Below, one piece after another: positions 14,081 through 42,578 of a stretch of DNA of 64,000 bases (the stretch's first letter is position 1; each line of letters opens with the position of its first letter). The position numbers were made by a program, and so were the translations under genes. Source of the stretch: Aquimarina acroporae (GTDB lineage: Bacteria; Bacteroidota; Bacteroidia; Flavobacteriales; Flavobacteriaceae); contig NZ_JALPRE010000012.1 of assembly GCF_023195925.1 (NCBI RefSeq), positions 62,001 through 126,000 on the forward strand, in the 5' to 3' direction. The notes beneath the pieces are model-generated. The model did not search any database. It was not told where the DNA came from and worked only from the letters and a program-made list of their open reading frames with translations.

Positions 14081-15370
14081 TTAGTGAAATACGTCAAGTT
14101 TTTGTATTGCAACTCTTCCATAATCAGAACTTTTGTAACTCTTTCCTTTCATAGATTGCAAATAGTTCCCAGCTTTAAAATAGTTTTGTTTAGCTGAAAC
14201 ACTTTTTGAGGTATAAATGGTTCTAATTCTATTACCACTGCTGTTGAGCTCGTAGAGTTTGACAATCTTGTTTTGATATGTTAGCTCTAGATACATTTCT
14301 TCACCAAGGTTAAAGTTACCCACGGTCTTGCCACCACCTTCTAATACTTCGGTTACATATCCATTAATTCTCATTTTTACCGAACCGCTGGTCTGGTTTG
14401 CAGATCCTTGACATTGAACTCTAATAACATCATCGAAGGTATCTGTTTTATCATGAATCTGACCAAAGCATACTTTTCCTGAACTTGGTAAACGATCAAC
14501 TCGTACTTTCCATTTCATTCGGTGTTCTTTACTGGTGGTTCCATCCCAAAAGATATTGTTATCTCCATCGGCAGTTAGTTCTCTTAGTTCCATTCTAGGG
14601 TTGCCAGATCCAGATGAGGTATCACTGCCAGACCACACTTGAAAGATGCTCCAACCGTTTTCAAGAAAAAACCAGTCAGAATTTGTATAGGACGATAAAT
14701 TGGGGATTTGGTCTACGTAATTATTATTCGACTTAGAACCTTCTAATCCATTTAATTTCCAGTTCTGGAGACCTAACAAATCATAAGGTGTATTGCCTGA
14801 AGGAGGAGGGGGAGGATTACCACCGCCATTGGAACCGTTGCCATAGATTTCAACTTCTGTAACACTATTCCAGTCATTACTGGAGTTACCAAAACTTGAA
14901 ATTCTTACATAACGAGCAGACACTTGATTGAAATCATAAGTTTCTAGTTGCGTTGTATTACCGCTGCTACCATTTTGTTTTCGATCTACAACAGTTGATA
15001 AACTTGAAGTAGAATTCCCTACTCTAACTTTAAAAAATGCTTTTCGCTGGTTTCCTTTAAACCATGCTATTTTGATTCTGGAAATATTTTGAACAGATCC
15101 TAAGTCATAGGTAATATATTTTCCTGTTCTCCCTAAAGAAGACCATCTGGTATTTAAATTTCCGTCTAAGGTATTTGCAGGAACGTTACCGTCATCACCA
15201 TTTGCAGAAACAGATGATATAGATAATTTAGATAGTGATTGTTTTTGATCATTTAATTCTTCTAGTAGAGCAGCGTCTTCTACAGATTCAATGTCTGTGG
15301 TGCAATTAGTGAGTAAAGTAAATGCTATTAAGCATAGGCCATAGCTAAATACTTTTTTAAAGTTTTCCAT
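14081..15370 (-). CDS. PL7 alginate lyase lipoprotein with F5/8-type (CBM32) domain
   Basis: A 429-residue lipoprotein (LLTNC, Cys23) made of a discoidin/CBM32-like domain (about 50-178; TRWSSLGRTGKYITYDLG and the closing NDWNSVTEVEIYG), a short Gly/Pro linker (179-193, with PPPPP) and a PL7 catalytic domain (about 195-429). Catalytic signatures are ELREL (261-265), QIH (304-306) and YFKAGNY (397-403). It is probably surface-exposed and attacks polymeric alginate, the CBM adding affinity. It is monocistronic: an operator palindrome lies upstream and a terminator lies downstream. Endolytic action is inferred from the family. Confidence 0.95.
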   Translation of the reverse strand: MENFKKVFSYGLCLIAFTLLTNCTTDIESVEDAALLEELNDQKQSLSKLSISSVSANGDDGNVPANTLDGNLNTRWSSLGRTGKYITYDLGSVQNISRIKIAWFKGNQRKAFFKVRVGNSTSSLSTVVDRKQNGSSGNTTQLETYDFNQVSARYVRISSFGNSSNDWNSVTEVEIYGNGSNGGGNPPPPPSGNTPYDLLGLQNWKLNGLEGSKSNNNYVDQIPNLSSYTNSDWFFLENGWSIFQVWSGSDTSSGSGNPRMELRELTADGDNNIFWDGTTSKEHRMKWKVRVDRLPSSGKVCFGQIHDKTDTFDDVIRVQCQGSANQTSGSVKMRINGYVTEVLEGGGKTVGNFNLGEEMYLELTYQNKIVKLYELNSSGNRIRTIYTSKSVSAKQNYFKAGNYLQSMKGKSYKSSDYGRVAIQKLDVFH

Positions 15371-15406
15371 AATAATTAGTTTGTGTTAAATGATAAATAT
15401 GATTTT

Positions 15407-15449
15407 AAATTGGTCAACCAATTTATATTAAATTGTTGATTTTCACAAA
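15407..15449 (-). promoter_or_regulatory. Promoter and single GntR operator of CBM32-PL7
   Basis: The extended palindrome AAATTGGTCAACCAATTT (15407-15424) overlaps a -7-like ATAAATTG (15419-15426 read on minus). A -33 TTTG (15446-15449) is 19 bases further upstream. Only one operator unit is present, against two or three at the other main promoters. Confidence 0.72.
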
Positions 15450-15572
15450 TTAAAATTGAATATTTAACAAAAAAAGAGTTAAAAATATGCGTAGTTGATA
15501 TTTCGATTAGCGTTTTGTTTTCCGAATAGGTAAACGCATGTCGCACCTAATTATTCTATATCAGGATATTGC

Positions 15573-15613
15573 AAAAAAAATGCCCGACTTCAAAATATTG
15601 TAGAAGTCAGGCA
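15573..15613 (-). terminator. Terminator of the third PL7 gene
   Basis: TGCCTGACTTC / GAAGTCGGGCA (minus; 15603-15613 and 15581-15591) with one T-G pair, followed on minus by TTTTTTTT. It follows the stop codon at 15653 and insulates the upstream PL7 gene from the CBM32-PL7 promoter. Confidence 0.82.
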
Positions 15614-15652
15614 ACTATATTAACTTGTTGTTGTAGCTAAAGAACGAGAGCT

Positions 15653-16681
15653 TTAGAAGTTTTCTGAAACTGTAATTTCACTAAATTCTACGATTCCATT
15701 TCCGGTACTTGTATCATTAACAGATTGGTTATACAATCCAGCTTTGTAATAATTACTGGTGCACGTTATGTTGTCATAGCTTCGTATAGGTGTACTCATA
15801 TCATCCAGATAAATCTTTAATGTACTATTTTGTACTGTTATCTTAAATGTTAACCAATCCCCTAAGACGTAATCGTTTTTGATATACCGATCTGCATAGT
15901 TTTGACTTCTGAAATCTATAGGAAAACCATCAGAAAGTTCGCCTTCTATAACATCACCAAGTAGATATATTCTACCTGTATCTCCTTCTTTGGCAAAAGC
16001 CTTATCACTTTGTATCTGAACTCTTAAAAGATCATCCCAAACGTCTTGTTGAAAATCATGAATTTGAGCAAAGGCAAACTTTTTGGTAGAAGAGGTTTGA
16101 ATTATTCTTACTTTAAAAGTAAGTGTTTTTATTTTTGAATCTGTAGCATCCCAGCCGGTTTCTCCATCACCGTTGGAGGGCATTTCTCTTAGCTCGCTTC
16201 TAGTATTCGACGAATTACTGGTGGTTGGTGTGCCTTGTTCTGTGGGGCAAAGAAATCTTACATTTCCATTTTCAACAAAAAAGAACTCGTCTTTATATTC
16301 TGTAAAACTTGGATCTTGAGCATAATCATTTCTGGTAGCATCTAAGTATACTTCATCTGCTTTACCATCACCACTTAAGTCTCTTGGCAATGTTATTTTC
16401 CAACTGGTTAAATTTAGTGCTACGTATGGGATGTCAGAACTTGAATCGGTGCCATCTGTATTACTGTCTCCGTCGTTCCCGTCTCCATTATTTTCATCTC
16501 CATTGTTTCCATCTCCATCATTACTTCCGTCACTATCGTTGTTATTGTCCTCATCAGAACCGCCATTGGTGTCGCTCCCTTGTTCTTGATCATTTACAGG
16601 AGTATCATCTGACGAGCAATTGTAAAAAGTACATGAAAAAACAAGAATAAAGGTAAGTAGGGGTAATTTTAAATGTTTCAT
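15653..16681 (-). CDS. PL7 alginate lyase lipoprotein with acidic low-complexity linker
   Basis: A 342-residue lipoprotein (LVFSC with Cys17; a second Cys22 follows), a 60-residue linker of Asp, Asn, Gly and Ser (about 23-83) and a PL7 catalytic domain (about 86-342) with SELREM, FAQIHDF and YYKAGLYNQ signatures. The acidic linker contrasts with the polybasic linker of the PL7 at 1080-1973, so the three PL7 paralogues differ most in how they are tethered. It would act at the cell surface on alginate. The gene stands alone with its own operator palindrome upstream and terminator downstream. Confidence 0.95.
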   Translation of the reverse strand: MKHLKLPLLTFILVFSCTFYNCSSDDTPVNDQEQGSDTNGGSDEDNNNDSDGSNDGDGNNGDENNGDGNDGDSNTDGTDSSSDIPYVALNLTSWKITLPRDLSGDGKADEVYLDATRNDYAQDPSFTEYKDEFFFVENGNVRFLCPTEQGTPTTSNSSNTRSELREMPSNGDGETGWDATDSKIKTLTFKVRIIQTSSTKKFAFAQIHDFQQDVWDDLLRVQIQSDKAFAKEGDTGRIYLLGDVIEGELSDGFPIDFRSQNYADRYIKNDYVLGDWLTFKITVQNSTLKIYLDDMSTPIRSYDNITCTSNYYKAGLYNQSVNDTSTGNGIVEFSEITVSENF

Positions 16682-16915: not shown

Positions 16916-16969
16916 GTAAAAAGTTTTTACGTAATATTGCACTATTAGTTAACGAAAGGGGCTTCGGCC
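16916..16969 (+). promoter_or_regulatory. Probable arginine-operon promoter region and leader start
   Basis: A perfect palindrome GTAAAAA-G-TTTTTAC (16916-16930) directly precedes TAATATTG (16932-16939), one mismatch from the -7 consensus TAnnTTTG. A C(UUCG)G tetraloop hairpin, GGCTTCGGCC, follows at 16960-16969. No clear -33 TTTG is visible. The palindrome does not resemble the ArgR box. Confidence 0.4.
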
Positions 16970-16989
16970 GACGATTTAGAGTTACTATC

Positions 16990-17097
16990 ATGAAAACGGC
17001 AAAAATATTTTATTCAGAAGTTAACGTTCAACCCTTGAACGCATTAGGTAATATCAATATACCCACACGCCGCTTTCGTCGCCCCTTGGGGGTCTAA
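16990..17097 (+). CDS. Candidate arginine-rich leader peptide of the arg/pro operon
   Basis: A 35-codon ORF from ATG at 16990 to TAA at 17095-17097. It begins MKTAKIFYSEVNVQ and ends IPTRRFRRPLGV. Four Arg codons lie within a five-codon stretch near the end (17068-17073 and 17077-17082). It lies 182 bases before the first gene of an arginine biosynthesis operon and on the same strand. The Arg codons sit inside a segment (CGTCGCCCC, 17077-17085) that can pair either with CGACG and GGGG upstream (16958-16973) or leave later hairpins to form, so ribosome position could select the structure. Function as an attenuator is inferred; the ORF and codon cluster are directly visible. Confidence 0.6.
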   Translation: MKTAKIFYSEVNVQPLNALGNINIPTRRFRRPLGV

Positions 17098-17279
17098 TTT
17101 TCATTTGAAGTAGGTGCGTCCTGCTTCCCCGAGAGACATCCAAATGTATATAGAAGATATTTAAAGTACTCTTTATAATAGAGTGTTTTAAAGCGTATTT
17201 TCTTCTGTATCATACTTCGGATACCACTACACAAATAAGATACAATTATTATAACTTTTTGATAAACGGAGGTACGTTT
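17098..17279 (+). promoter_or_regulatory. Structured leader RNA between leader peptide and arg operon
   Basis: Three hairpins lie in this 182-base stretch: GAAGTAGG/CCTGCTTC (17107-17127, one T-G pair), AAAGTACTCT/AGAGTGTTTT (17163-17189, two G-T pairs that favour the plus strand) and GTATC/GATAC (17207-17224). CCCC at 17127-17130 could also pair with GGGGG at 17088-17092, giving alternative folds. No stem with a proper T-tail is seen, so control may act on translation or through Rho rather than by an intrinsic terminator. Confidence 0.5.
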
Positions 17280-17921
17280 ATGCAACAGGTAGACATCATT
17301 ATAGCTAATGAAGATCATCTTCAGTACGCACAGGAAATATGCGAAGTAATATCTAACTCTGCAAAAATCAGAGGGACTGGTATTGCTAAGCGTACTCCTG
17401 AATATATTCAAACCAAAATGAAAAACGGTAATGCGGTAATCGCTTTATCCAAAGATCGTTTTGCTGGGTTTTGTTATATAGAAGTGTGGGGACATGAAAA
17501 ATATGTAGCCCATTCGGGTCTTATTGTGCACCCCGATTTTAGAAATCAAGGATTAGCCAAAAAAATTAAAAAATTTACGTTTGATTATTCCCTAAAAAAA
17601 TACCCAAGCTCAAAGGTATTTGGAATAACAACGGGATTGGCAGTGATGAAAATTAACTCCGATTTAGGTTACAAACCTGTAACGTTTTCAGAATTAACAG
17701 ATGATCCAAAGTTTTGGTCTGGGTGCAAAACATGTACCAATTACGATATTCTTACTTCCAAAGATCATAAGATGTGTCTTTGCACTGGGATGTTGTATGA
17801 CCCAGCAAAGGAAAAAACAAAAACCAGAAAGTGGTACGATAAAAAAGTTTTAAAAAGATTAAAAAGAATCAAGCAAACTATGCTTTCAAACAATAAACAA
17901 TTAGTGCTATGGAAAAAGTAG
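17280..17921 (+). CDS. GNAT acyltransferase, probable N-acylglutamate synthase
   Basis: A 213-residue GNAT. The ATG at 17280 is chosen because GGAGG (17268-17272) stands 7 bases before it. The acyl-CoA-binding motif is LIVHPDFRNQGLAKK (81-95). A cysteine set, CKTC (149-152) and CLC (166-168), looks like a small metal-binding knuckle and is unusual for GNATs. The C-terminus is strongly basic. It overlaps argG by 13 bases and leads the arg operon, which has no argA or argJ. From memory, a GNAT at this position in Bacteroides thetaiotaomicron was assigned as N-acylglutamate synthase from fitness data. Whether the acyl group is acetyl or succinyl is open. Confidence 0.8.
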   Translation: MQQVDIIIANEDHLQYAQEICEVISNSAKIRGTGIAKRTPEYIQTKMKNGNAVIALSKDRFAGFCYIEVWGHEKYVAHSGLIVHPDFRNQGLAKKIKKFTFDYSLKKYPSSKVFGITTGLAVMKINSDLGYKPVTFSELTDDPKFWSGCKTCTNYDILTSKDHKMCLCTGMLYDPAKEKTKTRKWYDKKVLKRLKRIKQTMLSNNKQLVLWKK

Positions 17922-19093
17922 TATTGGCATATAGTGGAGGGTTAGACACTTCATATTGTGTAAAATATCTCATCAACGAGAAAAACTTAGAAGTTCACAC
18001 CATCTTAGTGAATACTGGAGGTTTCTCGAATGAAGAATTGATTGAAACCGAAAAAAGAGCCTATGAGTTGGGAAGTTCTTCTCATGTTAATAAAACCATA
18101 CTCCAGGAGTTTTATGAAAAAGCGATTAAGTATTTAATTTTCGGAAATGTTTTAAAGAATAATACATATCCCTTATCGGTAAGTGCCGAGCGAATTTTTC
18201 AGGCGATAGAAGTTATCAATTATGCCAAAAAAGTAGGGGCAAAATATATTGCTCACGGTAGTACCGGAGCGGGGAATGATCAAATAAGATTTGACGTTAT
18301 CTTTCAAACTTTAGCTCCAGAAATCGAAATTATTACTCCGATTAGGGATTTACGTCTCTCTAGACAAGAAGAAGTAGCTTATCTAGAAAAACATGGAGTA
18401 CATTATAGTTGGAAAAAGGCTCAGTATTCAATTAATAAGGGGATTTGGGGAACAAGTGTTGGAGGAAAAGAAACACTTACCTCACATAGCGCTCTTCCAG
18501 AGGATGCATATCCTAGTCAACTTCAAAAAGAAAAAGAAGAAATCATCACTTTGAATTTTGAAAAAGGTGAGTTGGTAGGGCTTGATGGAATTGAAGATAC
18601 ACCCGTAAAAAATATTCAAAAACTTGAGGAGCTGGCCAAAGCTTTTGCCATAGGAAGAGATATACATGTAGGTGATACCATTATCGGAATCAAAGGAAGA
18701 GTTGGTTTTGAAGCTGCTGCTCCACTAGTAATTATTAAAGCACATCATTTATTGGAGAAACATGTATTAACAAAATGGCAACAATATTGGAAAGAACAAT
18801 TGGCAAATTGGTATGGGATGTTACTTCATGAAGGAAATTATCTTGATCCGGTTATGAGAAATATTGAAGTATTTCTTGAAGATTCTCAGAAATCGGTTAC
18901 TGGGGATGTGAAGGTGAAATTAAAACCCTATCACTTCACCCTTGAAGGAATTGAATCGAATTTTGATATGATGAAATCAGATTTTGGTCAATATGGAGAA
19001 ATGAATAATTCTTGGACCTCCGATGACGCAAAAGGGTTTATCAAAATATATGGCAATGCCAATAAAATATACCACAACGTAAACCCAGAGTAA
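17909..19093 (+). CDS. argG: Argininosuccinate synthase
   Basis: A 394-residue enzyme that joins citrulline and aspartate using ATP to form argininosuccinate. The N-terminal PP-loop AYSGGLDTSYC (about 7-17) binds ATP, and blocks such as AHGSTGAGNDQIRFDV are typical of ArgG. Length fits the family (about 400). The start overlaps the GNAT gene by 13 bases, so translation is coupled. It is followed after two bases by argC. Cytoplasmic. Confidence 0.96.
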   Translation: MEKVVLAYSGGLDTSYCVKYLINEKNLEVHTILVNTGGFSNEELIETEKRAYELGSSSHVNKTILQEFYEKAIKYLIFGNVLKNNTYPLSVSAERIFQAIEVINYAKKVGAKYIAHGSTGAGNDQIRFDVIFQTLAPEIEIITPIRDLRLSRQEEVAYLEKHGVHYSWKKAQYSINKGIWGTSVGGKETLTSHSALPEDAYPSQLQKEKEEIITLNFEKGELVGLDGIEDTPVKNIQKLEELAKAFAIGRDIHVGDTIIGIKGRVGFEAAAPLVIIKAHHLLEKHVLTKWQQYWKEQLANWYGMLLHEGNYLDPVMRNIEVFLEDSQKSVTGDVKVKLKPYHFTLEGIESNFDMMKSDFGQYGEMNNSWTSDDAKGFIKIYGNANKIYHNVNPE

Positions 19094-19095
19094 TC

Positions 19096-20073
19096 ATGAT
19101 AAAAGTAGGAATTATAGGAGGATCAGGGTATACTGCAGGAGAGTTGCTAAGACTATTAGTACATCACCCAATGGTAGATATAGATTTTGTATTTAGTACT
19201 ACCAATGCTGGATCAAGTATTGCAAAGCAACATCCTGATTTAGTTGGAGAAATAGATTTAAATTTTACCAATACAATAAATCCTGATGTACATGTAGTCT
19301 TCCTTTGTTTGGGACATGGAAGATCAAGGAGTTTTTTAGAAAACAATACGTTCTCTGGGATTACTAAAGTAATAGACTTAGGGAATGATTTTAGGTTGGC
19401 CAAAGATGCAAGTTTTTTAGGTAATGATTTTACTTATGGTTTACCTGAATTACATAGGGAAAAAATCAAGCAGGCTGATCATATTGCAAACCCTGGTTGC
19501 TTTGCTACAGCAATTCAACTTGCATTATTACCATTAGCGTCTCAAGGAAAACTAAATAAAGCGGTGCATATAAATGCAACCACCGGAAGTACCGGAGCAG
19601 GAGTTGTACCTGGAAGCACAACTCATTTTAGTTGGAGAGATAACAATTTTTCAAGTTATAAGGTATTTACGCACCAACATCTGGATGAGATAGAGCAAAG
19701 TATAAAACAGAAACAACAAAACTTTGAATCTCCGCTGTTTTTTATTCCAAATAGAGGGAATTTCAGTAAAGGAATTTATGCAACTCTATATACCCAATTT
19801 GATGGTACAGAAGAGGAAGCCTTACAGTTATATAGGAGCTTTTATAAAGAGGCAAAGTTCACTATAGTTTCAGATTATGAAATTAATCTAAAGCAAGTGG
19901 TTAATACCAATAAGTGTATTCTGCATGTCACTAAGAAGAATGGTATGTTATTGATCACTTCGGTTATCGATAATTTGATTAAAGGAGCGTCTGGGCAAGC
20001 AATACATAATATGAATCTAATGTTTGGATTAGAAGAAAAAACAGGATTAGAATTAAAAGCAAGCGCATTTTAG
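19096..20073 (+). CDS. argC: N-acyl-gamma-glutamyl-phosphate reductase
   Basis: A 325-residue NADPH-dependent reductase of the third step of arginine synthesis, turning N-acylglutamyl phosphate into the semialdehyde. It has a GxSGYTAGELLRLL nucleotide-binding start (about 8-20) and the catalytic Cys in ANPGCFATA. Start and stop are packed tightly between argG (two bases) and proC (two bases). Family length is about 310-345. Whether it handles acetylated or succinylated substrate depends on the operon's transcarbamylase and synthase. Confidence 0.96.
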   Translation: MIKVGIIGGSGYTAGELLRLLVHHPMVDIDFVFSTTNAGSSIAKQHPDLVGEIDLNFTNTINPDVHVVFLCLGHGRSRSFLENNTFSGITKVIDLGNDFRLAKDASFLGNDFTYGLPELHREKIKQADHIANPGCFATAIQLALLPLASQGKLNKAVHINATTGSTGAGVVPGSTTHFSWRDNNFSSYKVFTHQHLDEIEQSIKQKQQNFESPLFFIPNRGNFSKGIYATLYTQFDGTEEEALQLYRSFYKEAKFTIVSDYEINLKQVVNTNKCILHVTKKNGMLLITSVIDNLIKGASGQAIHNMNLMFGLEEKTGLELKASAF

Positions 20074-20075
20074 AA

Positions 20076-20870
20076 ATGGATAAAATAACAATAATAGGAG
20101 GAGGAAACTTAGGTAAATCTATTATATCAGGATTAGCAAATAGTGACCTTTTTGAAGCAAAAAATATTACTGTTGTCGATAAGTCGAAGTATAATTTAAA
20201 GGAAGTTGAAGAAAAACTTGGTGTTTCGACCTCGCAAGATATTATTTCCTCTATTAAGGATGTGAAATGGGTAATACTATGCGTACAACCCAGGCAACTA
20301 GATACCGTGTTACAAGAAATTAAAGGGCATGTTACATCTGTGCAGGTTCTTATTTCTACAGTAACAGGAACTTCGATTGCTGAAATTAATGAAGTATTAC
20401 CAGATAATAAAGTGGTACGTGTTATGCCTAATACCGGAGCAGCGAAAAAACTATCTATGACTTGTATCTCTGCCAATGACGATGTGAAAGAAGAATTGAA
20501 TATGGTTGCCAAAATGTTTGATACAATAGGTGAAACATTGGTTATAGAAGAACGACTCATGCAAGCTGCTACTGTTTTGGGAGCTAGTGGAATAGCTTTC
20601 TTTTTGAGATTTCTAAGAGCTATGATTCAAGGAGGTATTCAAATGGGATTTCATCCTCACGAGGCACAAATAATAGCCGTGCAAACTGCTATTGGCGCTG
20701 CTACACTGGTAGCAGAAAATGGAACACACCCAGAAAGAGAGATTGATAAAGTTACTACTCCCCAGGGATGCACCATCGAAGGACTAAATGAAATGGAACA
20801 TCAAGGACTTAGTTCCTCGGTGATCAAAGGAGTTATGGCGTCATATGAGAAAATAAACACCATAAAATAA
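20076..20870 (+). CDS. proC: Pyrroline-5-carboxylate reductase
   Basis: A 264-residue enzyme making proline from P5C with NAD(P)H. It has an N-terminal Rossmann motif (IGGGNLGKSIISGL, about 6-19), VRMPNTGAAKKLSMT (about 108-122) and the C-terminal ProC signature around TTPQGCTIEGLNEME. It sits inside the arg genes rather than beside proA-proB, an arrangement that mixes the two glutamate-derived pathways in one transcript. It is followed by a 23-base gap to argD. Confidence 0.95.
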   Translation: MDKITIIGGGNLGKSIISGLANSDLFEAKNITVVDKSKYNLKEVEEKLGVSTSQDIISSIKDVKWVILCVQPRQLDTVLQEIKGHVTSVQVLISTVTGTSIAEINEVLPDNKVVRVMPNTGAAKKLSMTCISANDDVKEELNMVAKMFDTIGETLVIEERLMQAATVLGASGIAFFLRFLRAMIQGGIQMGFHPHEAQIIAVQTAIGAATLVAENGTHPEREIDKVTTPQGCTIEGLNEMEHQGLSSSVIKGVMASYEKINTIK

Positions 20871-20893
20871 TTAACCAACAATAAGATTATATT

Positions 20894-22033
20894 ATGAAGT
20901 TATTTGATGTATATCCACTATATGAGGTAGAACCAGTAAAAGCTTTTGATGCAACGGTTATCGATAAGAATGGGGCTGAATATCTGGATCTTTATGGAGG
21001 TCATGCGGTAATTTCTATTGGGCACTCACACCCTCATTATGTAAATAAACTAAAAGAACAAATTGATAAAATTGGATTTTACTCCAATGCGGTTCAGAAT
21101 AGCCTTCAGGTGCAGTTAGCAGAGAAACTTGGGAAACTATCTGGATATGAAAATTACCAGTTGTTTTTGTGTAACTCTGGAGCAGAGGCAAATGAAAATG
21201 CACTAAAACTAGCCTCTTTTAATACAGGTAAATCAAGAGTGATTGCATTTGAAAATGGTTTTCATGGGAGAACTTCTGCAGCTGTAGCAGCTACAGACAA
21301 TGAAAAAATCAATTCACCTTTAAATAAACAGCAGAACGTCACCTTTTTACCTTTAAATAAATTAGAGTTAGTCCAAGCTGAGTTGGTGAAGGGTGATGTC
21401 TGTGCTGTTATTATCGAACCTATTCAAGGGGTAGGTGGTCTGGATGAAGGAAATACTGACTTTTTTAAAGGATTAGAAGCCTTGTGTCATGAATTTGGAG
21501 CAGTGCTAATTCTTGATGAGGTACAATCTGGATATGGTCGAACGGGAAAGTTTTTTGCTCACCAATATCATGAAATTACTCCTGATATTATTTCAATCGC
21601 TAAAGGAATGGGAAATGGGTTTCCAATAGGTGGTATCATGATTGCACCCCATTTTAAATCTAGCTATGGAATGCTAGGGACCACTTTTGGGGGAAATCAT
21701 CTTGCCTGTGCGGCAGCTTTGGCTGTTTTGGAAGTAATTGAAACCGAAAACCTAATCGATAATGCTAGATTAACCGGAGAGTACTTTGCTTCTGTAGTGT
21801 CCCAACTTCCTGGAGTTTTGAAAATGAAAGGTAGAGGACTCATGGTAGGACTGGAGTTTGATTTTCAAATTTCAGATTTACGTAAGAAACTTATCTATGA
21901 TCAACATATTTTCACAGGAGGAGCTATGAATAAAAAGTTACTTCGAATATTACCTCCGCTTACTATTGGTAAACAGGAAATAGATCAGTTTATCGAAGCA
22001 TTACAACAGGTGTTAATTGTAGAAAAAGTATAA
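20894..22033 (+). CDS. argD: N-acylornithine aminotransferase
   Basis: A 379-residue class III PLP aminotransferase. LILDEVQSGYGRTGKFFAHQ gives the PLP-ring Asp and ISIAKGMGNGFPIGG holds the Schiff-base Lys; FGGNHLACAAALAVL is another family block. It transfers the amino group from glutamate to N-acylglutamate semialdehyde. In this operon argD stands between proC and proA. Class III aminotransferases overlap in specificity, and use of unacylated ornithine cannot be ruled out, but the context makes ArgD the best call. Confidence 0.93.
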   Translation: MKLFDVYPLYEVEPVKAFDATVIDKNGAEYLDLYGGHAVISIGHSHPHYVNKLKEQIDKIGFYSNAVQNSLQVQLAEKLGKLSGYENYQLFLCNSGAEANENALKLASFNTGKSRVIAFENGFHGRTSAAVAATDNEKINSPLNKQQNVTFLPLNKLELVQAELVKGDVCAVIIEPIQGVGGLDEGNTDFFKGLEALCHEFGAVLILDEVQSGYGRTGKFFAHQYHEITPDIISIAKGMGNGFPIGGIMIAPHFKSSYGMLGTTFGGNHLACAAALAVLEVIETENLIDNARLTGEYFASVVSQLPGVLKMKGRGLMVGLEFDFQISDLRKKLIYDQHIFTGGAMNKKLLRILPPLTIGKQEIDQFIEALQQVLIVEKV

Positions 22034-22035
22034 AG

Positions 22036-23232
22036 ATGAGTTTAGTATTGAGTATAGCACAAAGAAATTCGGTATTAGAAAAAATGGCTGTTCTTATAGA
22101 TCAGAATAGACAACATATCATTAGCGCAAATCAAAAGGATATAGAAAGCTATGTTGGTAATGATAAAGCTATGTTTGATAGATTAAAGGTTGATTCAGAC
22201 AAGATTGAAGGAATGATCACTTCTTTAAAGCAATTAGCATCGCAAGAAGACCCTTTGGGAGTAGAACGGTTTAGATTTACTCATGATAATGGAATGCAGG
22301 TTTACAATAAAACGGCTTCTTTTGGAACGGTATTAATTATTTACGAATCAAGACCAGATGTTACTGTTGAAGCTGCTGGAATTGCATTTAAATCTGGGAA
22401 CAAAATCTTACTTAAAGGAGGAAAAGAGTCCTTGAATTCTAATGAAGAGATTGTCAAACTTTGGCATCTGGCACTTTCTAGTACAGGGATTCCTGTCGAT
22501 TGGGTTACTTATTTAAATTATAATAGAGTTCAAACTCAGGATTTTCTACAAAAACCAACTCAAAAAGTAGATCTCATTGTGCCTAGAGGTGGAGATAGAC
22601 TTATAGAATTTGTGAAAACACATGCGAGCTGTCCGGTAATCGTTAGTGGAAGAGGTAACAACTTTGTATATGTTCATGACGAAGCCGATAGAGCTTTAGC
22701 TTTAGATAATATTGTTAATGGAAAAACAGATAAAATATCTGCTTGTAACGCTGTAGATAAGGTGTTGATAGATAAAAATTTACCTAACAAGGAGGATTTT
22801 GTTAGGAATCTTATCACCTCACTAAAAAATTACAATGTAGAAATACATGGAGACCAGTCTCTAATTAATTATGAAGAGGTAACTCCTATAAAGGATGCCG
22901 ATGTTTGGTTTGAAGAGTTTTTAGATTACAAAATTGTAATCGGTGAGATCGATGGTTTAGACGAAGCTATTAGTAAGATCAATACATATAGCGGAGGGCA
23001 TTCTGCAGCTATCATGACAAGAAATAATGGAATTGCCAATGATTTCATGACTTCGGTAGATTGTGCTGCGGTGTATCATAATGCTTCTACCCGCTTTACC
23101 GATGGTTTTCAACTCGGATTAGGTGGAGAATTGGCTATAAGTACAGATAAGTTGCATCAAAGAGGGCCTATTGGTTTGCAACATTTGGTAACCAACAAAT
23201 GGTATATACATGGAGAAGGTCAGATTAGATAA
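22036..23232 (+). CDS. proA: Glutamate-5-semialdehyde dehydrogenase (gamma-glutamyl phosphate reductase)
   Basis: A 398-residue ALDH-superfamily enzyme of proline synthesis that reduces gamma-glutamyl phosphate. The signatures are SFGTVLIIYESRPDVTVEAA (about 95-114) and DKISACNAVDKVLID, which carries the catalytic Cys. It overlaps proB by 23 bases, so the two consecutive enzymes, whose intermediate is labile, are translationally coupled. The order proA-proB is the reverse of the usual proBA. Confidence 0.95.
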   Translation: MSLVLSIAQRNSVLEKMAVLIDQNRQHIISANQKDIESYVGNDKAMFDRLKVDSDKIEGMITSLKQLASQEDPLGVERFRFTHDNGMQVYNKTASFGTVLIIYESRPDVTVEAAGIAFKSGNKILLKGGKESLNSNEEIVKLWHLALSSTGIPVDWVTYLNYNRVQTQDFLQKPTQKVDLIVPRGGDRLIEFVKTHASCPVIVSGRGNNFVYVHDEADRALALDNIVNGKTDKISACNAVDKVLIDKNLPNKEDFVRNLITSLKNYNVEIHGDQSLINYEEVTPIKDADVWFEEFLDYKIVIGEIDGLDEAISKINTYSGGHSAAIMTRNNGIANDFMTSVDCAAVYHNASTRFTDGFQLGLGGELAISTDKLHQRGPIGLQHLVTNKWYIHGEGQIR

Positions 23233-24004
23233 AAAAAGAATTGTCTTAAAAATAGGATCGAATACACTTACCAAAGAGACCAATCAAATCTCCAGAGGTA
23301 AGATTGAAGATATTGGAAGGCAAATTGTGGCTTTGCAAAACGAATATGAATTTGTGATTGTGAGCTCTGGTGCCATTGCTGTGGCGAAACAATTCGTGAA
23401 TTTAGAAAGTAACGGAAAAGAAATAAATATCAAACAGGCATTAGCATCAATTGGTCAGCCGCATTTAATGAGGATTTTTCAGGAAAGCTTCAGGGATTTA
23501 GGGTTGCTTACGTCACAGTGTTTATTGTCCTATTCAGATTTTGAAAGAGAACAATCTAAGGTGAACATTGTAAATACAATAAATGTACTCTTAGACAACA
23601 ATTACATTCCGATCATAAATGAAAATGATACTGTAGCGACAGATGAAATACAATTTGGTGATAATGATAAACTAGCGGGGTTAACAGCTGCTTTACTAGA
23701 TGCAGATATGTTAGTAATCGCTACCAATACTAATGGGATTTGTACCAAAGAATCTGTAGAAAATAAAACCTTCAAAACTATTGAAGAAATATATGATATT
23801 GATGAGCTACAAAAAGAAGTAGCAACTTCAATTTCGAGTCATGGTACAGGAGGAATGAAAACAAAAATAGAAGCAGCAAGAATTGCGCAAAATGAAAATA
23901 TTGAAACATGGATAGTAAATGGTCTTGAAGATAACTTCATGATGAATGCAATTAATGAAACTGTGCCATTTACAAGAATAACAAAAGTAGTGTATAATGA
24001 ATAA
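23210..24004 (+). CDS. proB: Glutamate 5-kinase, short form without PUA domain
   Basis: A 264-residue amino-acid kinase phosphorylating glutamate. The blocks VLKIGSNTLT (about 12-21), NENDTVATDEIQFGDNDKLA and GTGGMKTKIEAARIA are typical of ProB. It ends after the kinase domain and lacks the C-terminal PUA domain of the E. coli enzyme, as in other short ProB forms. It starts within proA and its end overlaps the transcarbamylase gene by 8 bases (ATGAATAA). Proline feedback control may differ from that of the long form. Confidence 0.94.
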   Translation: MEKVRLDKKRIVLKIGSNTLTKETNQISRGKIEDIGRQIVALQNEYEFVIVSSGAIAVAKQFVNLESNGKEINIKQALASIGQPHLMRIFQESFRDLGLLTSQCLLSYSDFEREQSKVNIVNTINVLLDNNYIPIINENDTVATDEIQFGDNDKLAGLTAALLDADMLVIATNTNGICTKESVENKTFKTIEEIYDIDELQKEVATSISSHGTGGMKTKIEAARIAQNENIETWIVNGLEDNFMMNAINETVPFTRITKVVYNE

Positions 24005-24941
24005 TTATTTTTCTGTACAAGATATTGATGCCCTTAATGATTGGGTAAATGAAGCGATAGTATTAAAGAAAAACCCTTTGTCGCATAATTATTTGGGGAA
24101 GAATAAAACCATTGGGTTATTGTTTTTCAATCCAAGCCTTCGTACCCGTTTAAGTACACAAAAAGCAGCACTAAACCTTGGTATGAATGTTATGGTTATG
24201 AATTTTACAGGTGAAGGATGGTCGCTTGAATATGAAGATGGAGTTGTTATGGATCAGGGAAATTCAGAACATATTAAAGAAGCTGCTCAGGTTGTTTCTC
24301 AATATTGTGATGTGCTAGCAATCAGAGCCTTTGCAAAGCTAGAAGATAGAGAAGAGGATTATAAAGAGAAGGTTTTAAAGAGTTTTATTGAGTATGCTAC
24401 CATTCCGGTAGTCAATATGGAAAGTGCAACAGGGCACCCATTACAGGCATTGACTGACGCGATTACCATTACCGAACATAAAAAAGTTAGGAAACCAAAG
24501 GTTGTATTATCATGGGCACCGCATCCAAAAGCTTTGCCCCAGGCAGTTGCCAATTCTTTTGTTGAAATGATGCAACGAATGGAAGCAGATTTTGTAATTA
24601 CCCACCCTGTGGGATTTGAGTTAGCCAGTCAGATTACCAAAGACGTGCCCATTGATTACAACCAGGAAAATGCGTTAAAAGATGCCGACTTTGTGTATGT
24701 GAAGAATTGGAGTTCGTATTCAGATTATGGTCAAATAGGGAGTGATCAACAATGGAGAATTACCGAAGGTAAAATGAAACTTACCAATCAAGCTAAGTTT
24801 ATGCATTGTCTTCCGGTTAGAAGAAATGTAGTGGTTGATGACGCAGTGTTAGATGGAGAACATTCTATCGTAATAGAACAAGCAAACAATAGAACCTATG
24901 CAGCACAATTGGTTTTGAAGAAAATTCTTGAAGCAAAGTAG
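23997..24941 (+). CDS. argF': N-acylornithine carbamoyltransferase (acetyl or succinyl type)
   Basis: A 314-residue transcarbamylase. FFNPSLRTRLSTQKAA (about 42-57) is the carbamoyl-phosphate loop, related to but distinct from the STRT of ordinary ornithine enzymes. MESATGHPLQALTDA and FMHCLPVRRN are also present. Proteins of this branch use N-acetylornithine (Xanthomonas) or N-succinylornithine (Bacteroides fragilis); a single active-site residue (Glu92 against Pro90) decides. The matching position here is near GNSEHIKEA, but I cannot align it surely without the structures. The presence of an argE-type deacylase after it fits carbamoylation before deacylation. Confidence 0.92.
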   Translation: MNNYFSVQDIDALNDWVNEAIVLKKNPLSHNYLGKNKTIGLLFFNPSLRTRLSTQKAALNLGMNVMVMNFTGEGWSLEYEDGVVMDQGNSEHIKEAAQVVSQYCDVLAIRAFAKLEDREEDYKEKVLKSFIEYATIPVVNMESATGHPLQALTDAITITEHKKVRKPKVVLSWAPHPKALPQAVANSFVEMMQRMEADFVITHPVGFELASQITKDVPIDYNQENALKDADFVYVKNWSSYSDYGQIGSDQQWRITEGKMKLTNQAKFMHCLPVRRNVVVDDAVLDGEHSIVIEQANNRTYAAQLVLKKILEAK

Positions 24942-24942
24942 T

Positions 24943-25725
24943 ATGGAAAGGCAAAAATTATTAGTAGCAAAAATAGGAGGAAACATCATAGAAGATCAAA
25001 ATGCTTTAGCCACATTCTTAAGGGATTTTTCTAAGATTCAAGGTCCAAAAATTTTGATCCATGGAGGAGGTAAATCTGCAACTAGGCTCGCATCAAAACT
25101 CGGAGTGAAGACAGAAATGATTGATGGTAGAAGAATCACTTCTGCCGAGAATCTTGATATTGTTGTTATGACCTACGGAGGTTTGATCAACAAAGCGATA
25201 GTTTCGGGGTTACAAAAAAATAATTGTAATGCATTAGGGTTAACCGGAGCAGACGCCAATGTGATCGTAGCTGAAAAAAGACCAGTTCAGTTTATTGATT
25301 ATGGATTCGTAGGGGATGTGATTAATGTAAATCATACTACTATTAAAGGTTTATTGGATATCGGGATTATTCCAGTGTTTTGTGCAGTTACTCATGATGG
25401 TAACGGACAATTATTTAATACAAATGCAGATACGATAGCTTCAGAAATCGCTTCTGCTATGAGTGAAGATTTTGAAGTATCTCTTTTTTATTGTTTTGAA
25501 CTTAAAGGGGTACTAGAAAATATAAACGATAAAGATTCTGTAATTGAAAACATAGATTTAGAAAAATATACCAAACTTAGAGATGATGAGGTGATAGCTG
25601 ATGGAATGTTACCTAAACTACAAAACTGTTTTGATGCCCTACATAAAAATGTGAGCAGTGTACATATCGCTAACGCCGATTTTATTAAAGACCAAACAAT
25701 TAAACACACCACATTGAGCCTATAA
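24943..25725 (+). CDS. argB: N-acylglutamate kinase
   Basis: A 260-residue amino-acid kinase of the second arginine step. The ATG at 24943 is preferred to an upstream TTG because it lies directly after the stop of the transcarbamylase gene and gives the usual N-terminus MERQKLLVAKIGGN. The substrate block is ILIHGGGKSATRLASKLGV, and NADTIASEIASAM lies in the nucleotide region. In many bacteria this is the arginine-inhibited enzyme. The N-terminal extension linked to arginine feedback is missing here, which makes control at the leader RNA more plausible. Confidence 0.95.
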   Translation: MERQKLLVAKIGGNIIEDQNALATFLRDFSKIQGPKILIHGGGKSATRLASKLGVKTEMIDGRRITSAENLDIVVMTYGGLINKAIVSGLQKNNCNALGLTGADANVIVAEKRPVQFIDYGFVGDVINVNHTTIKGLLDIGIIPVFCAVTHDGNGQLFNTNADTIASEIASAMSEDFEVSLFYCFELKGVLENINDKDSVIENIDLEKYTKLRDDEVIADGMLPKLQNCFDALHKNVSSVHIANADFIKDQTIKHTTLSL

Positions 25726-25728
25726 ACA

Positions 25729-26793
25729 ATGAAAGAAAAGTTAATAAATAGTGCCATAGAGTTATTACATCAATTAATAGAGACACCTTCTTTTTCTTCA
25801 GAAGAGGATAATACCGCGGTATTAATTGAAGGATGGTTTACGATGCATGGTATAAATTATGAAAGAGAAAACAATAATATTTGGGCTTATAATAAGTATT
25901 TCGATACTTCGAAACCTACTATTTTATTGAATTCGCATCATGACACTGTGAAACCAAATGGTAATTATACAAACGATCCCTTTAAAGCCTTTACCAAAGA
26001 TGGGAAATTATTCGGTTTAGGGAGTAATGATGCTGGAGGGTGTTTGGTTTCCTTATTGGCCACCTTTACCTATTTTTTTGACAGAAAAGATTTGAAATAC
26101 AACTTTGTAATTGTTGCTTCTGCCGAAGAAGAAAGTAGTGGTCCATTAGGATTGAAAAGTGTATTGAAATATTTGAAAAATGTATCCTTTGGTATTATTG
26201 GAGAGCCTACTTTAATGCAATTAGCAGTTGCAGAAAAAGGATTACTGGTACTAGATGTTTCCGTAAAGGGTACTGCAAGTCATGCAGCCCATCCTAACGA
26301 TGATAATGCTATTTACAATGCTCTTAAGGTAATAGAGTGGTTTAAAGAATATGAGTTTGAAAAAACCTCTGAAACACTTGGTAAAGTTAAGATGACCGTT
26401 ACTCAGATTAATGCTGGGAAACAGCATAATGTTGTTCCTGCTACGTGTAACTTAGTAGTTGATATTAGGGTAAATGATAAATATAAGAATGAAGAAGTTT
26501 TGAGTATTGTACAAGAAGCAATGCCCGAAAATGTAGTTGTCAAACCAAGGTCGTTACATCTTGGGTCTTCATCGATACCTATCGATCATCCTGTTGTACA
26601 ATCTGGGATTGCTTTGGGCAGGACGACCTATGGTTCTCCCACCTTGTCAGATCAATCGGTACTTAGTTGCCCATCATTAAAACTGGGGCCGGGAGACTCT
26701 ACTCGGTCACATTCTGCTGATGAATTTATTTATGTAGGTGAAATTGAAAACGGAATTGAATTATATATAGAAATACTAGAAGGTATTGTTTAA
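25729..26793 (+). CDS. argE: M20-family N-acyl-ornithine/citrulline deacylase
   Basis: A 354-residue zinc aminoacylase. Metal and catalytic motifs are NSHHDTVKP (first His/Asp), GSNDAGG (bridging Asp), ASAEEESSGP (catalytic Glu) and GEPT. A dimerisation domain sits near 170-275. It removes the acyl group at the end of the acylated branch. Since the transcarbamylase here acts on acyl-ornithine, the true substrate is probably N-acylcitrulline rather than acylornithine. It is three bases from argB and 19 bases from argH. Confidence 0.92.
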   Translation: MKEKLINSAIELLHQLIETPSFSSEEDNTAVLIEGWFTMHGINYERENNNIWAYNKYFDTSKPTILLNSHHDTVKPNGNYTNDPFKAFTKDGKLFGLGSNDAGGCLVSLLATFTYFFDRKDLKYNFVIVASAEEESSGPLGLKSVLKYLKNVSFGIIGEPTLMQLAVAEKGLLVLDVSVKGTASHAAHPNDDNAIYNALKVIEWFKEYEFEKTSETLGKVKMTVTQINAGKQHNVVPATCNLVVDIRVNDKYKNEEVLSIVQEAMPENVVVKPRSLHLGSSSIPIDHPVVQSGIALGRTTYGSPTLSDQSVLSCPSLKLGPGDSTRSHSADEFIYVGEIENGIELYIEILEGIV

Positions 26794-26812
26794 GGAATAA
26801 AGAATAGAAAGA

Positions 26813-28090
26813 ATGAAACTCTGGGATAAAGGATTACCAACAGATCAAAAAATAGATATCTTCACCGTAGGAAATGATAGACAGTTAGATTTGGTAATTG
26901 CCAAATACGATGTAAAAGCAACTTTGGCACATGCAAAAATGCTTCATAAGGTGAAAATTCTCTCCAACGATGAAATTGTAGATATAGAAAGAGAGCTTCA
27001 AAAGTTAATGATAGAAATTGAGGCTGGAACTTTTTCTATCGACCAGCAATTTGAAGATGTACATTCCAAAATCGAGTTCGAATTAACGCAAAGAATTGGA
27101 GATGCAGGAAAAAAGATACACACTGCTCGCTCTAGAAACGATCAGGTTTTGGTAGCAATGCATTTGTATCTTAAAGATGAACTGCAGCAAATTAAAGTAT
27201 TGGTAAAAGAGTTATCTCAAAATTTATTGAAATCGGCAGATCAATATAAAGATGTGCTACTGCCAGGATATACACATTTACAAATAGCAATGCCTTCTTC
27301 TTTTGGGTTGTGGTTTTCTGCCTATGCCGAAAGTTTTGTAGATGATTTATACTTCGTAAACGCTGCCCTTAAAGTAGTAGATCAAAATCCTTTGGGAAGT
27401 GCTGCTGGCTATGGGAGTTCGTTTCCTATTGATAGAGATTTTACAACAAAAGAATTAGATTTTTCTACATTAAAATATAATGTAGTAGCTGCGCAAATGA
27501 GTAGAGGTAAGTCTGAAAAATCGGTTGCTTTTGCCTTAAGTAGTATAGCAGGTACTTTATCAAAGTTGGGAATGGATGTCTGTTTATATATGAGTCAGAA
27601 TTTTGATTTTATGAGTATTCCTTCAGAATTTACTACAGGATCTAGCATTATGCCTCATAAAAAGAATCCAGATGTATTTGAGCTCATAAGAGGAAAATGT
27701 AATAAAATACAGGCTTTACCCTATGAATTAACCTTGTTGACCAATAATTTGCCTAGTGGTTATCATAGAGACTTACAGTTACTAAAAGAGGGAGTTGTTC
27801 CTGCAATACAAGATATTAAAGCTTCTCTGGAAATGGCAATATATGCCTTGAAAAATGTAACTGTGAATACAAATATTTTAGATGACAATAAGTACGATTA
27901 TCTATTTAGTGTAGATACTCTGAATGAGTTGGTTAAAAACGGACTTTCATTTAGAGATGCCTATGTACAAATTGGGAAGGAAATAGAAGAGGGACGATAC
28001 CAACCGGATAAAAACACCAAACATACACACATTGGAAGCATAAATAATTTATGCTTAGAACATATAGAAGAGAAGCTGAAACAAGTTTAA
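26813..28090 (+). CDS. argH: Argininosuccinate lyase
   Basis: A 425-residue member of the fumarase/aspartase superfamily that splits argininosuccinate into arginine and fumarate. The superfamily signature GSSIMPHKKNPD (about 280-291) carries the catalytic Ser and is intact, as are HTARSRNDQV and YTHLQIAMP. It is somewhat shorter than the E. coli enzyme (457) but normal for Bacteroidota. It is the last gene of the operon, followed by a terminator. Confidence 0.96.
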   Translation: MKLWDKGLPTDQKIDIFTVGNDRQLDLVIAKYDVKATLAHAKMLHKVKILSNDEIVDIERELQKLMIEIEAGTFSIDQQFEDVHSKIEFELTQRIGDAGKKIHTARSRNDQVLVAMHLYLKDELQQIKVLVKELSQNLLKSADQYKDVLLPGYTHLQIAMPSSFGLWFSAYAESFVDDLYFVNAALKVVDQNPLGSAAGYGSSFPIDRDFTTKELDFSTLKYNVVAAQMSRGKSEKSVAFALSSIAGTLSKLGMDVCLYMSQNFDFMSIPSEFTTGSSIMPHKKNPDVFELIRGKCNKIQALPYELTLLTNNLPSGYHRDLQLLKEGVVPAIQDIKASLEMAIYALKNVTVNTNILDDNKYDYLFSVDTLNELVKNGLSFRDAYVQIGKEIEEGRYQPDKNTKHTHIGSINNLCLEHIEEKLKQV

Positions 28091-42473: not shown

Positions 42474-42578
42474 AATATTTTAGTTTTAATTTTTCCTACT
42501 CTTTTTAGTAAAGGCTTTTCAGATGCCGCCTACAATTATGACTATTGTTTTTCCCTTACTTGATTCTTGTTTACATTT

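Follow-up and report, generated by a model that had tools for sequence, protein, structure and literature searches.

A short open reading frame (ORF) ending in a cluster of arginine codons precedes the arginine/proline operon in the 5.18 Mb genome of Aquimarina acroporae, and comparison with related genomes suggests that it probably works as a leader whose translation gauges arginine and thereby governs the GNAT-argG...argH operon. That arginine is sensed through translation of this leader appears very likely; that the output is specifically of the Rho type is a tentative proposal. In the mechanism envisaged, scarcity of Arg-tRNA would cause ribosomes to linger on the Arg codons, so that a 5' element (E1) could not pair with these codons and a short hairpin over the ORF end (H2) could not close; the operon would then be expressed. 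With arginine plentiful, ribosomes would complete the ORF and depart, the E1:Arg-codon helix and H2 would re-form, and expression would drop, most likely because transcription ended prematurely in a Rho-type manner, or the RNA decayed, within the AU-rich sequence that leads up to the GNAT gene. If true, this would explain the control of arginine synthesis in a large family without an arginine repressor and would provide a defined example of leader-peptide control without an intrinsic terminator, in bacteria that are not known to rely on Shine-Dalgarno pairing.

The leader and the genes of the operon all lie on the + strand of the window, that is, the whole 64,000-nt stretch of DNA that was analysed (Table 1). 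A reading of this DNA made from the sequence alone (hereafter, the sequence-only reading) had placed the ORF directly before the first gene; the ORF is indeed upstream of it and on the same strand, but 182 nt separate it from GNAT. The box found ahead of E1 resembles TAnnTTTG, the Bacteroidota -7 box consensus according to PMC9723704, and transcription would be expected to start a few bases 3' of it; similar boxes were seen by eye ahead of E1 in relatives. A search for the arginine repressor ArgR (PF01316) found none in 25 flavobacterial genomes (0/25), the same search being positive in Bacteroides, in E. coli and in seven other control genomes. Membership of an ArgR regulon, for which ArgR has to be encoded, therefore finds no support in these 25 genomes. 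Elsewhere in the window, a DUF805b RNA (RF02914) scored above its gathering score at 42493-42532 (-), and two secreted proteins without an NCBIfam match are encoded at 14081-16681 (-). From a motif recognized by eye, we take these two proteins to resemble alginate lyases.

Table 1. Leader elements and operon genes, with positions in the window.
Feature	Position	Strand	Basis or remark
-7 box match, TAATATTG	16932..16939	+	one mismatch to Bacteroidota TAnnTTTG
E1, TTAACGAAAGGGGC-NNNN-GCCGACGATTTAGAGTTA, hairpin GGC-N4-GCC plus outer stem	16947..16987	+	near-invariant in comparison
E1 strand ACGAAAGGGGC, complementary to Arg codons	16952..16962	+	pairing energy
Leader ORF, 35 codons, MKTAKIFYSEVNVQPLNALGNINIPTRRFRRPLGV then stop	16990..17097	+	ORF list and comparison
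H1, CGTTCAA-CCC-TTGAACG, in ORF	17025..17041	+	hairpin before Arg run
Arg codon cluster, CGC CGC TTT CGT CGC	17068..17082	+	sequence and comparison
H2, GCCCC-TTG-GGGGT, over ORF end	17081..17093	+	short hairpin, 5-pair stem
H3, GAAGTAGG-TGCGT-CCTGCTTC, apex GGUGNGUCC	17107..17127	+	hairpin, conserved
GNAT-family acetyltransferase, first gene of operon	17280..17921	+	Pfam PF13508/PF00583
argG, argininosuccinate synthase	17909..19093	+	Pfam PF00764, PF20979
argC, proC, argD, proA, proB, N-acetylornithine carbamoyltransferase, argB, argE/dapE-type deacylase, argH	19096..28090	+	domain matches; argC, proC, proA and proB named by domain matches and gene order
N-acetylornithine carbamoyltransferase	23997-24941	+	within operon

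The ORF of 35 codons with four Arg at its end was located exactly as the sequence-only reading had described it. Its last codons (17068-17097) read CGC CGC TTT CGT CGC CCC TTG GGG GTC TAA, so that the peptide closes on four Arg, with a Phe inserted, followed by PLGV. GNAT is present in 30 of the 33 genomes of the genus searched, and an ORF of the Arg-rich type lies upstream of it at all 30 genus loci fetched, far more often than chance would give. At least three Arg occur among the last 14 residues at 29 of these 30, the exception being L025, whose leader has a single Arg and ends FCFCRP-stop. Further irregularities are found in L030, which lacks E1 and would have to start with GTG, in L013, where an altered stop codon makes the ORF five codons longer, and in L041, which has Leu in the third Arg position (RCFLRP). 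Among 33 Aquimarina leaders listed by hand, the middle of the peptide is variable and the Arg-rich C-terminus is kept: all changes at Phe31, Arg32 and Arg33 are synonymous, and six of the 33 have Cys as the second Arg residue's replacement. The list omitted L013, L024, L025 and L041, and also L028-L030, which are too divergent. Once the first four, which are close leaders, are added, all three residues are kept in 35 of 37 leaders, L013 and L024 retaining them and L041 and L025 having Leu and Cys, respectively, in place of Arg32. The start codon and the C-terminal motif remain in the same frame across leaders of 33-36 codons.

An Arg-rich leader ORF was likewise found before GNAT at 70 of 72 loci of the family, chosen for genus spread from the 273 genomes in which GNAT was matched. 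The test accepted ORFs of 12-65 codons lying at most 420 nt upstream of GNAT with at least three Arg in the last 10 residues; five dinucleotide shuffles passed it at 7, 7, 2, 5 and 6 of the 72 loci, and the reverse strand at 14. When at least four Arg were required, 59 of 72 loci passed, as against 2, 1, 0, 0 and 1 in the shuffles and 4 on the reverse strand. Examples of leader endings in the family are SPRRRRP, PTRRRP and FPRRP, each followed by the stop codon; by eye, the residues before the Arg run vary widely among genera. Outside the family, the leader occurs at some loci of the order, with ...RRRPV... in L201 and L203 and with MNKTTKHINTLAPRFFRRPLWVLN before the stop codon in L208 and L244. 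Four of eight loci from other families (L201, L202, L205 and L207) passed the three-Arg test. For L205 and L207 this is probably a chance result; L203 did not have the length needed for the test. On these comparative grounds, the leader ORF is real and has been conserved within a bacterial family whose members live in the sea and in soil. Both coding selection and enrichment in codons for the end product were found, as expected of a ribosome-mediated leader placed upstream of, and on the same strand as, the operon for synthesis of that product. Conservation in relatives, which the sequence-only reading had singled out as a check, thus came out in its favor, with a kept C-terminus, a variable middle and two deviating loci, L025 and L041.

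The ORF end is accompanied by conserved RNA structure. A search pattern for the module formed by hairpins H2 and H3 matched 111 of 190 upstream regions, 99 of them distinct. Thirty-three of these loci, including L154 from another genus, are called here Aquimarina-type; the 66 others include L030 of the genus. The regions missed by the pattern are mainly from Flavobacterium, plus variants such as L024, L028, L029, L049, L067, L141, L143, L152, L163-L165, L167, L176, L190 and L191. H2 conforms to the consensus CGYCGCCC-GUAA-GGGUG or a variant of it. The stop codon comes directly after Arg-Pro, within the H2 loop, at 64 of the 66 other loci, and the ORF extends past the loop and the Pro codon at 32 of the 33 Aquimarina-type loci. 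The H2 pairs are nearly invariant and hence yield no covariation signal; the Pro codon is CCC in 33 of 33 Aquimarina leaders, which the H2 stem explains. H3 follows about a dozen nucleotides after H2, as GGAAAU-A-GG-UGNGU-CC-AUUUCC or GAAGUAGG-UGCGU-CCUGCUUC, and is the hairpin that had been correctly read at 17107-17127. Of the 99 distinct loci, 87 have the H3 apex GGUGNGUCC and the other 12 have GGUGNGCCC, a constancy that is mostly fixed by the search pattern. With the best register taken for real and shuffled arms alike, 5/5 pairs form at 63 of the 66 other loci (shuffled arms: mean 41.6, max 50) and at 32 of the 33 Aquimarina-type loci (mean 27.4, max 30). The covariation that had been suggested as a further check was also found, in the form of pair-preserving changes in H3 and, partly, in H1. 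The H1 motif GTTC[AG]..TGAAC is present at 22 of the 33 Aquimarina-type loci, and H1 is found with many compensating changes at 13 of 13 loci of group B (see below). At the 66 other loci, H1 stems of at least six pairs number 39, versus 21.8 in shuffles (max 30), those of at least five pairs number 52, versus 45.0 (max 51), which is no clear excess, and the mean fold z-score of the H1 stretch is -0.98; H1 is not general across loci. A pairing of the GGUGNG of H3 with Arg codons CGYCGCC was also considered and set aside: it is good in L161, but by eye its variable bases do not co-vary.

A covariance model of the module, R1, gave one match in the host genome (150 of 1964 candidates scored) and, when 20 family genomes were scanned, a strong match just upstream of GNAT in 18, with no strong match in the remaining two (G148 and G160). 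Since some of the genomes scanned had contributed to R1, single strong matches arise by construction; the informative part of the scan is the absence of further copies, no second strong site being found over 24 genomes with 150 candidates scored in each. Seven weaker matches were inspected. Six of them (E 0.017-0.82) fall inside coding regions and were attributed to chance, and L244 (E 2.5) is a genuine leader belonging to another family; the remaining weak matches have E values of 1.5-4.7. Because R1 matches once in the host genome, the module is not general to amino-acid operons, and a role of that kind was rejected. The RNAalifold structure underlying R1 lacked the outer stem of H3, the aligner having misplaced the 5' arm, and for this reason H3 was tested separately, as described above. 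No Rfam family rose above its gathering cut-off at the leader; below threshold, ar15 overlaps the L114 leader (25.1 bits, cut-off 40). The H2/H3 module and E1, being without an Rfam match, are targets for structure and factor searches.

The choice of Arg codons bears on the identity of the sensor. Within the last 10 codons, CGC and CGT account for 117 of 122 Arg codons at the 33 Aquimarina-type loci and for 256 of 267 at the 66 others, the search anchor itself forcing one CGN codon per locus; in the 43 long ORFs of the window, the same two codons make up 20% of Arg codons and AGA makes up 55%. Arg codons are conserved outside H2 as well. Because CGU and CGC are decoded by one Arg tRNA, the CGY-reading Arg tRNA is the likely sensor, and the near-exclusive use of CGC and CGT turns this into a sharp prediction on the identity of that tRNA.

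As to the output, Rho-type termination or decay is favored because no convincing intrinsic terminator was found (see below). The spacer between H3 and GNAT measures 35-99 nt at the 66 other loci, where it is C-rich and G-poor (C 0.17, G 0.06), an indirect pointer to Rho, versus 100-375 nt at the 33 Aquimarina-type loci, which lack this bias (C 0.14, G 0.13). Two folds that the sequence-only reading had proposed past the Arg codons exist in the host but have a limited distribution. The later hairpin corresponds to a 13-pair stem at about 17160-17192, but the best spacer hairpins of the other Aquimarina-type loci differ from it and from one another; the GGGGG/CCCC option is present in the host, and the CCCC after H3 is kept at 21 of the 33 Aquimarina-type loci but at 7 of the 66 others. 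The short distance from the H3 end to the GNAT start at the 66 other loci would suit control at the level of translation, in which the leader would alter access to the GNAT start or RNA stability and not transcription; the Arg-codon leader of Salmonella orf34-speF, for one, affects translation, RNase G decay and Rho (PMC6386406). In the Aquimarina-type loci, however, the long spacer and its locus-varying hairpins make direct masking of the GNAT start unlikely, and translational control seems on the whole a rather unlikely account of the operon.

E1 is remarkably uniform where it occurs: its 32 fixed bases, 21 of which were already fixed by the picking pattern, are identical in 50 of 50 distinct sequences picked, which carry 17 different tetraloops. 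It precedes the leader ORF in the host genus, where it is present at 29 of 30 loci, and in ten further genera. Among 397 family genomes, 19 contain a 24-base core of E1 without any mismatch, 15 times before argG and four times before GNAT (G000, G028, G116 and G232). There is no second copy in the host genome, and in a sample of 395 genomes of the phylum the one match was the host itself. Fourteen family genomes matching E1 at three mismatches only were taken as chance. As E1 is confined to 19 of 397 family genomes, an E1 switch cannot be the family-wide mechanism. At 13 of the 15 argG-type loci, another protein of about 190 residues, not GNAT, lies between E1 and argG, the leader and E1 being kept (L114-L117, L122, L123, L129, L130, L132, L133, L135, L136 and L139); the single copy scanned, that of L114, is an acetyltransferase (PF00583).

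The Arg codons had been proposed to pair with segments of the 5' leader. Such pairing exists, that with CGACG (the E1 3' strand) amounting to -9.8 kcal/mol, but a stronger partner is the 5' strand of E1: ACGAAAGGGGC (16952-16962) and GCCGCTTTCGT (17069-17079) form 10 pairs with one G-G mismatch, at -16.2 kcal/mol. This energy is the tied best of the 32 CGC/CGT, TTT/TTC codings of R-R-F-R-R (one ties), and among all 2592 Arg-codon codings two pair better with E1, by 0.3. The mean energy of the E1:Arg-codon pairing is -13.6 at the 33 Aquimarina-type loci versus -6.9 at the 66 others. For 8 of 16 distinct Aquimarina-type 15-mers spanning the Arg codons (L008, L019, L020, L025, L026, L027, L034 and L037), the pairing is weaker than -10 kcal/mol, the weakest value being -5.7 in L025. 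Pairing with E1 could explain why the Phe codon is kept and why the second Arg codon changes to TGC or TGT, which preserves G-U pairs. In genomes that have E1, the E1:Arg-codon helix and the local E1 hairpin are candidates for mutually exclusive folds set by ribosome position; no equivalent pair of folds was identified in genera without E1. A ribosome sitting on the Arg codons would displace the helix, and folds constrained accordingly offered E1 other partners. In group B, E1 can pair instead with GCCCC at the ORF end plus TTTCGTTA downstream (three loci folded). The latter sequence, complementary to the 5' end of E1, occurs at 13 of 13 group B loci and at none of the 33 Aquimarina-type loci; it was rejected as a general feature and kept as a group B one. 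Among the last 14 residues of group B leaders there is one Arg in L135, two in six leaders and three in six.

The invariance of 32 bases over 50 sequences and 11 genera is stricter than pairing requires, and E1 remained unchanged while its group B partner moved. Both features would fit an element that binds a ligand or a protein, in the manner of a riboswitch or an operator, and for which pairing with the Arg codons would be secondary. The zero-mismatch copies, however, all stand before argG or GNAT, and hardly any other Arg coding would pair with the E1 5' strand better than that of Aquimarina; we consider a binding element unlikely. A broader version of the leader-translation model can also be formulated, in which terminator-less arginine control has replaced ArgR throughout the family, a CGY-specific Arg leader has its end within a hairpin, the H3 apex GGUGNGUCC docks a putative transcription-deciding factor, and the Arg codons of the Aquimarina lineage now serve as antisense to E1, itself a new element, ribosome position setting the 5' fold. 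Taken in full, this version is speculative and somewhat doubtful.

A terminator scan flagged one terminator-like site, H2 plus CTAATTTTCA, where 0.3 would be expected; this would fit if H2 (or H3) acted as a weak intrinsic terminator blocked by stalled ribosomes, in the manner of a classical attenuator. The genome does have such an attenuator before its his operon (L253, G000:C1 near 422414-422878), where a leader carrying HHHH (MKNLFVHHHHSYIFAQAW, then stop) is followed by a stem and a T run; since the his operon has one, the genome does not lack such terminators in general, and their absence is particular to arg in this comparison. But the H2 stem comprises just 5 pairs, and a run of five T within 15 nt after the H2 loop codon occurs at 0 of 33 Aquimarina-type loci and 3 of 66 others. 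Neither the terminator scan of the window nor the check for T runs after H2 at the 99 loci revealed a convincing T-tailed terminator between the leader ORF and GNAT, the first gene, such as defines classical attenuation. Moreover, to judge from the coordinates, much of H2 would be hidden whether the ribosome stood at the Arg codons or at the stop codon; H2 alone can therefore hardly report Arg shortage, and a classical attenuator appears improbable. The sequence-only reading, which had seen no T-tailed stem, was nearly right given the flagged H2, and its view that the leader departs from classical attenuation holds. Its more general claim, that the layout is that of ribosome-mediated control, is supported by the conserved ORF, the Arg cluster, the stems and the long-range pairing.

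The immediate succession of Arg-Pro and stop codon at 64 of the 66 other loci recalls TnaC, which likewise ends Arg-Pro-stop, and raises the idea of an arrest peptide whose nascent ...RRP would stall at Pro-stop and sense arginine or a product. Such a peptide has little to recommend it: the Aquimarina-type ORFs, but for one, continue beyond Pro, the CCC Pro codon is accounted for by the H2 stem (33/33), and the residues ahead of the Arg run diverge between genera. Conservation of RNA structure alone, with the ORF untranslated, would account for the strongly conserved H2 and H3, for CCC and GGG codons fixed by pairing and, through E1 pairing, possibly for other codons, but not for the single frame kept over 33-36 codons, the synonymous-only changes at F31, R32 and R33 or the Arg codons kept beyond H2, and is very improbable.

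Leader-peptide control as a kind is already known. Closest in working principle to the leader described here is Salmonella orf34-speF (SpeFL/DUF2618; PMC6386406), a 34-codon ORF whose consecutive Arg codons sense arginine via ribosome pausing, with hairpins at and just past the stop codon and with Rho and RNA decay as outputs without an intrinsic terminator. However, orf34-speF acts on a polyamine gene and responds to ornithine as well, whereas the present leader belongs to an arginine biosynthesis operon, has its Arg codons at the ORF end and, in genomes with E1, is preceded by an element that can pair with them. Four leaders matched no Pfam family, SpeFL (DUF2618) included, at E up to 1, a weak test with such short queries. 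Attenuators of the trp/his type share with this leader an ORF with end-product codons before the operon and, putatively, alternative RNA folds, but have a T-tailed terminator. In S. aureus, ribosomes pause at the Arg codons of the rbfL leader peptide when arginine runs short (PMC13009471); these codons are AGA/AGG, and the effect of rbfL is to repress a regulator's translation, with no tie to the synthesis of arginine. Short ORFs resembling leader peptides are mentioned for Bacteroides thetaiotaomicron (PMC7366714). Two structured Bacteroidetes motifs, Bacteroid-trp RNA (RF01692), a likely cis-regulator, and Flavo-1 RNA (RF01705), are listed in PMC2864571; neither matched the window at gathering scores or, with E values as high as 5 allowed, any of eight leader loci. 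For Flavobacterium psychrophilum, of the same family as the host, strong clues for leader-peptide attenuation before amino-acid operons have been presented (PMC9723704). The available part of that article names no arginine leader or RNA elements of this kind; its supplementary appendix may contain an arginine leader. In the literature searched, there was no report of a terminator-less arginine form, of the H2/H3 module or of E1 pairing.

Flavobacterium loci such as L070, L077, L086, L094, L097 and L107 have a different first leader, by eye of the type MNKxxLHITSxSRTNRPxTSPEVRxLSL-stop, whose Arg codons are CGG and AGA and lie close to where the transcript begins. L097 and L107 have, in addition, a second frame whose end, ...RP-stop, falls in an H2-like hairpin (by eye). 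A Flavobacterium-like GNAT region, L078, lies on a contig labelled as a Klebsiella pneumoniae MAG, probably through a binning error. Tandem leaders, in which a first Arg-rich ORF near the promoter box (for example MKNLKNKIRCTIPGLPVRSRRRF, then stop) is followed by a second ORF, were seen at 19 of 19 loci picked for this arrangement (L152, L163, L165, L167, L170, L181-L183, L186, L188, L199, L200, L209, L213, L214, L216 and L218-L220).
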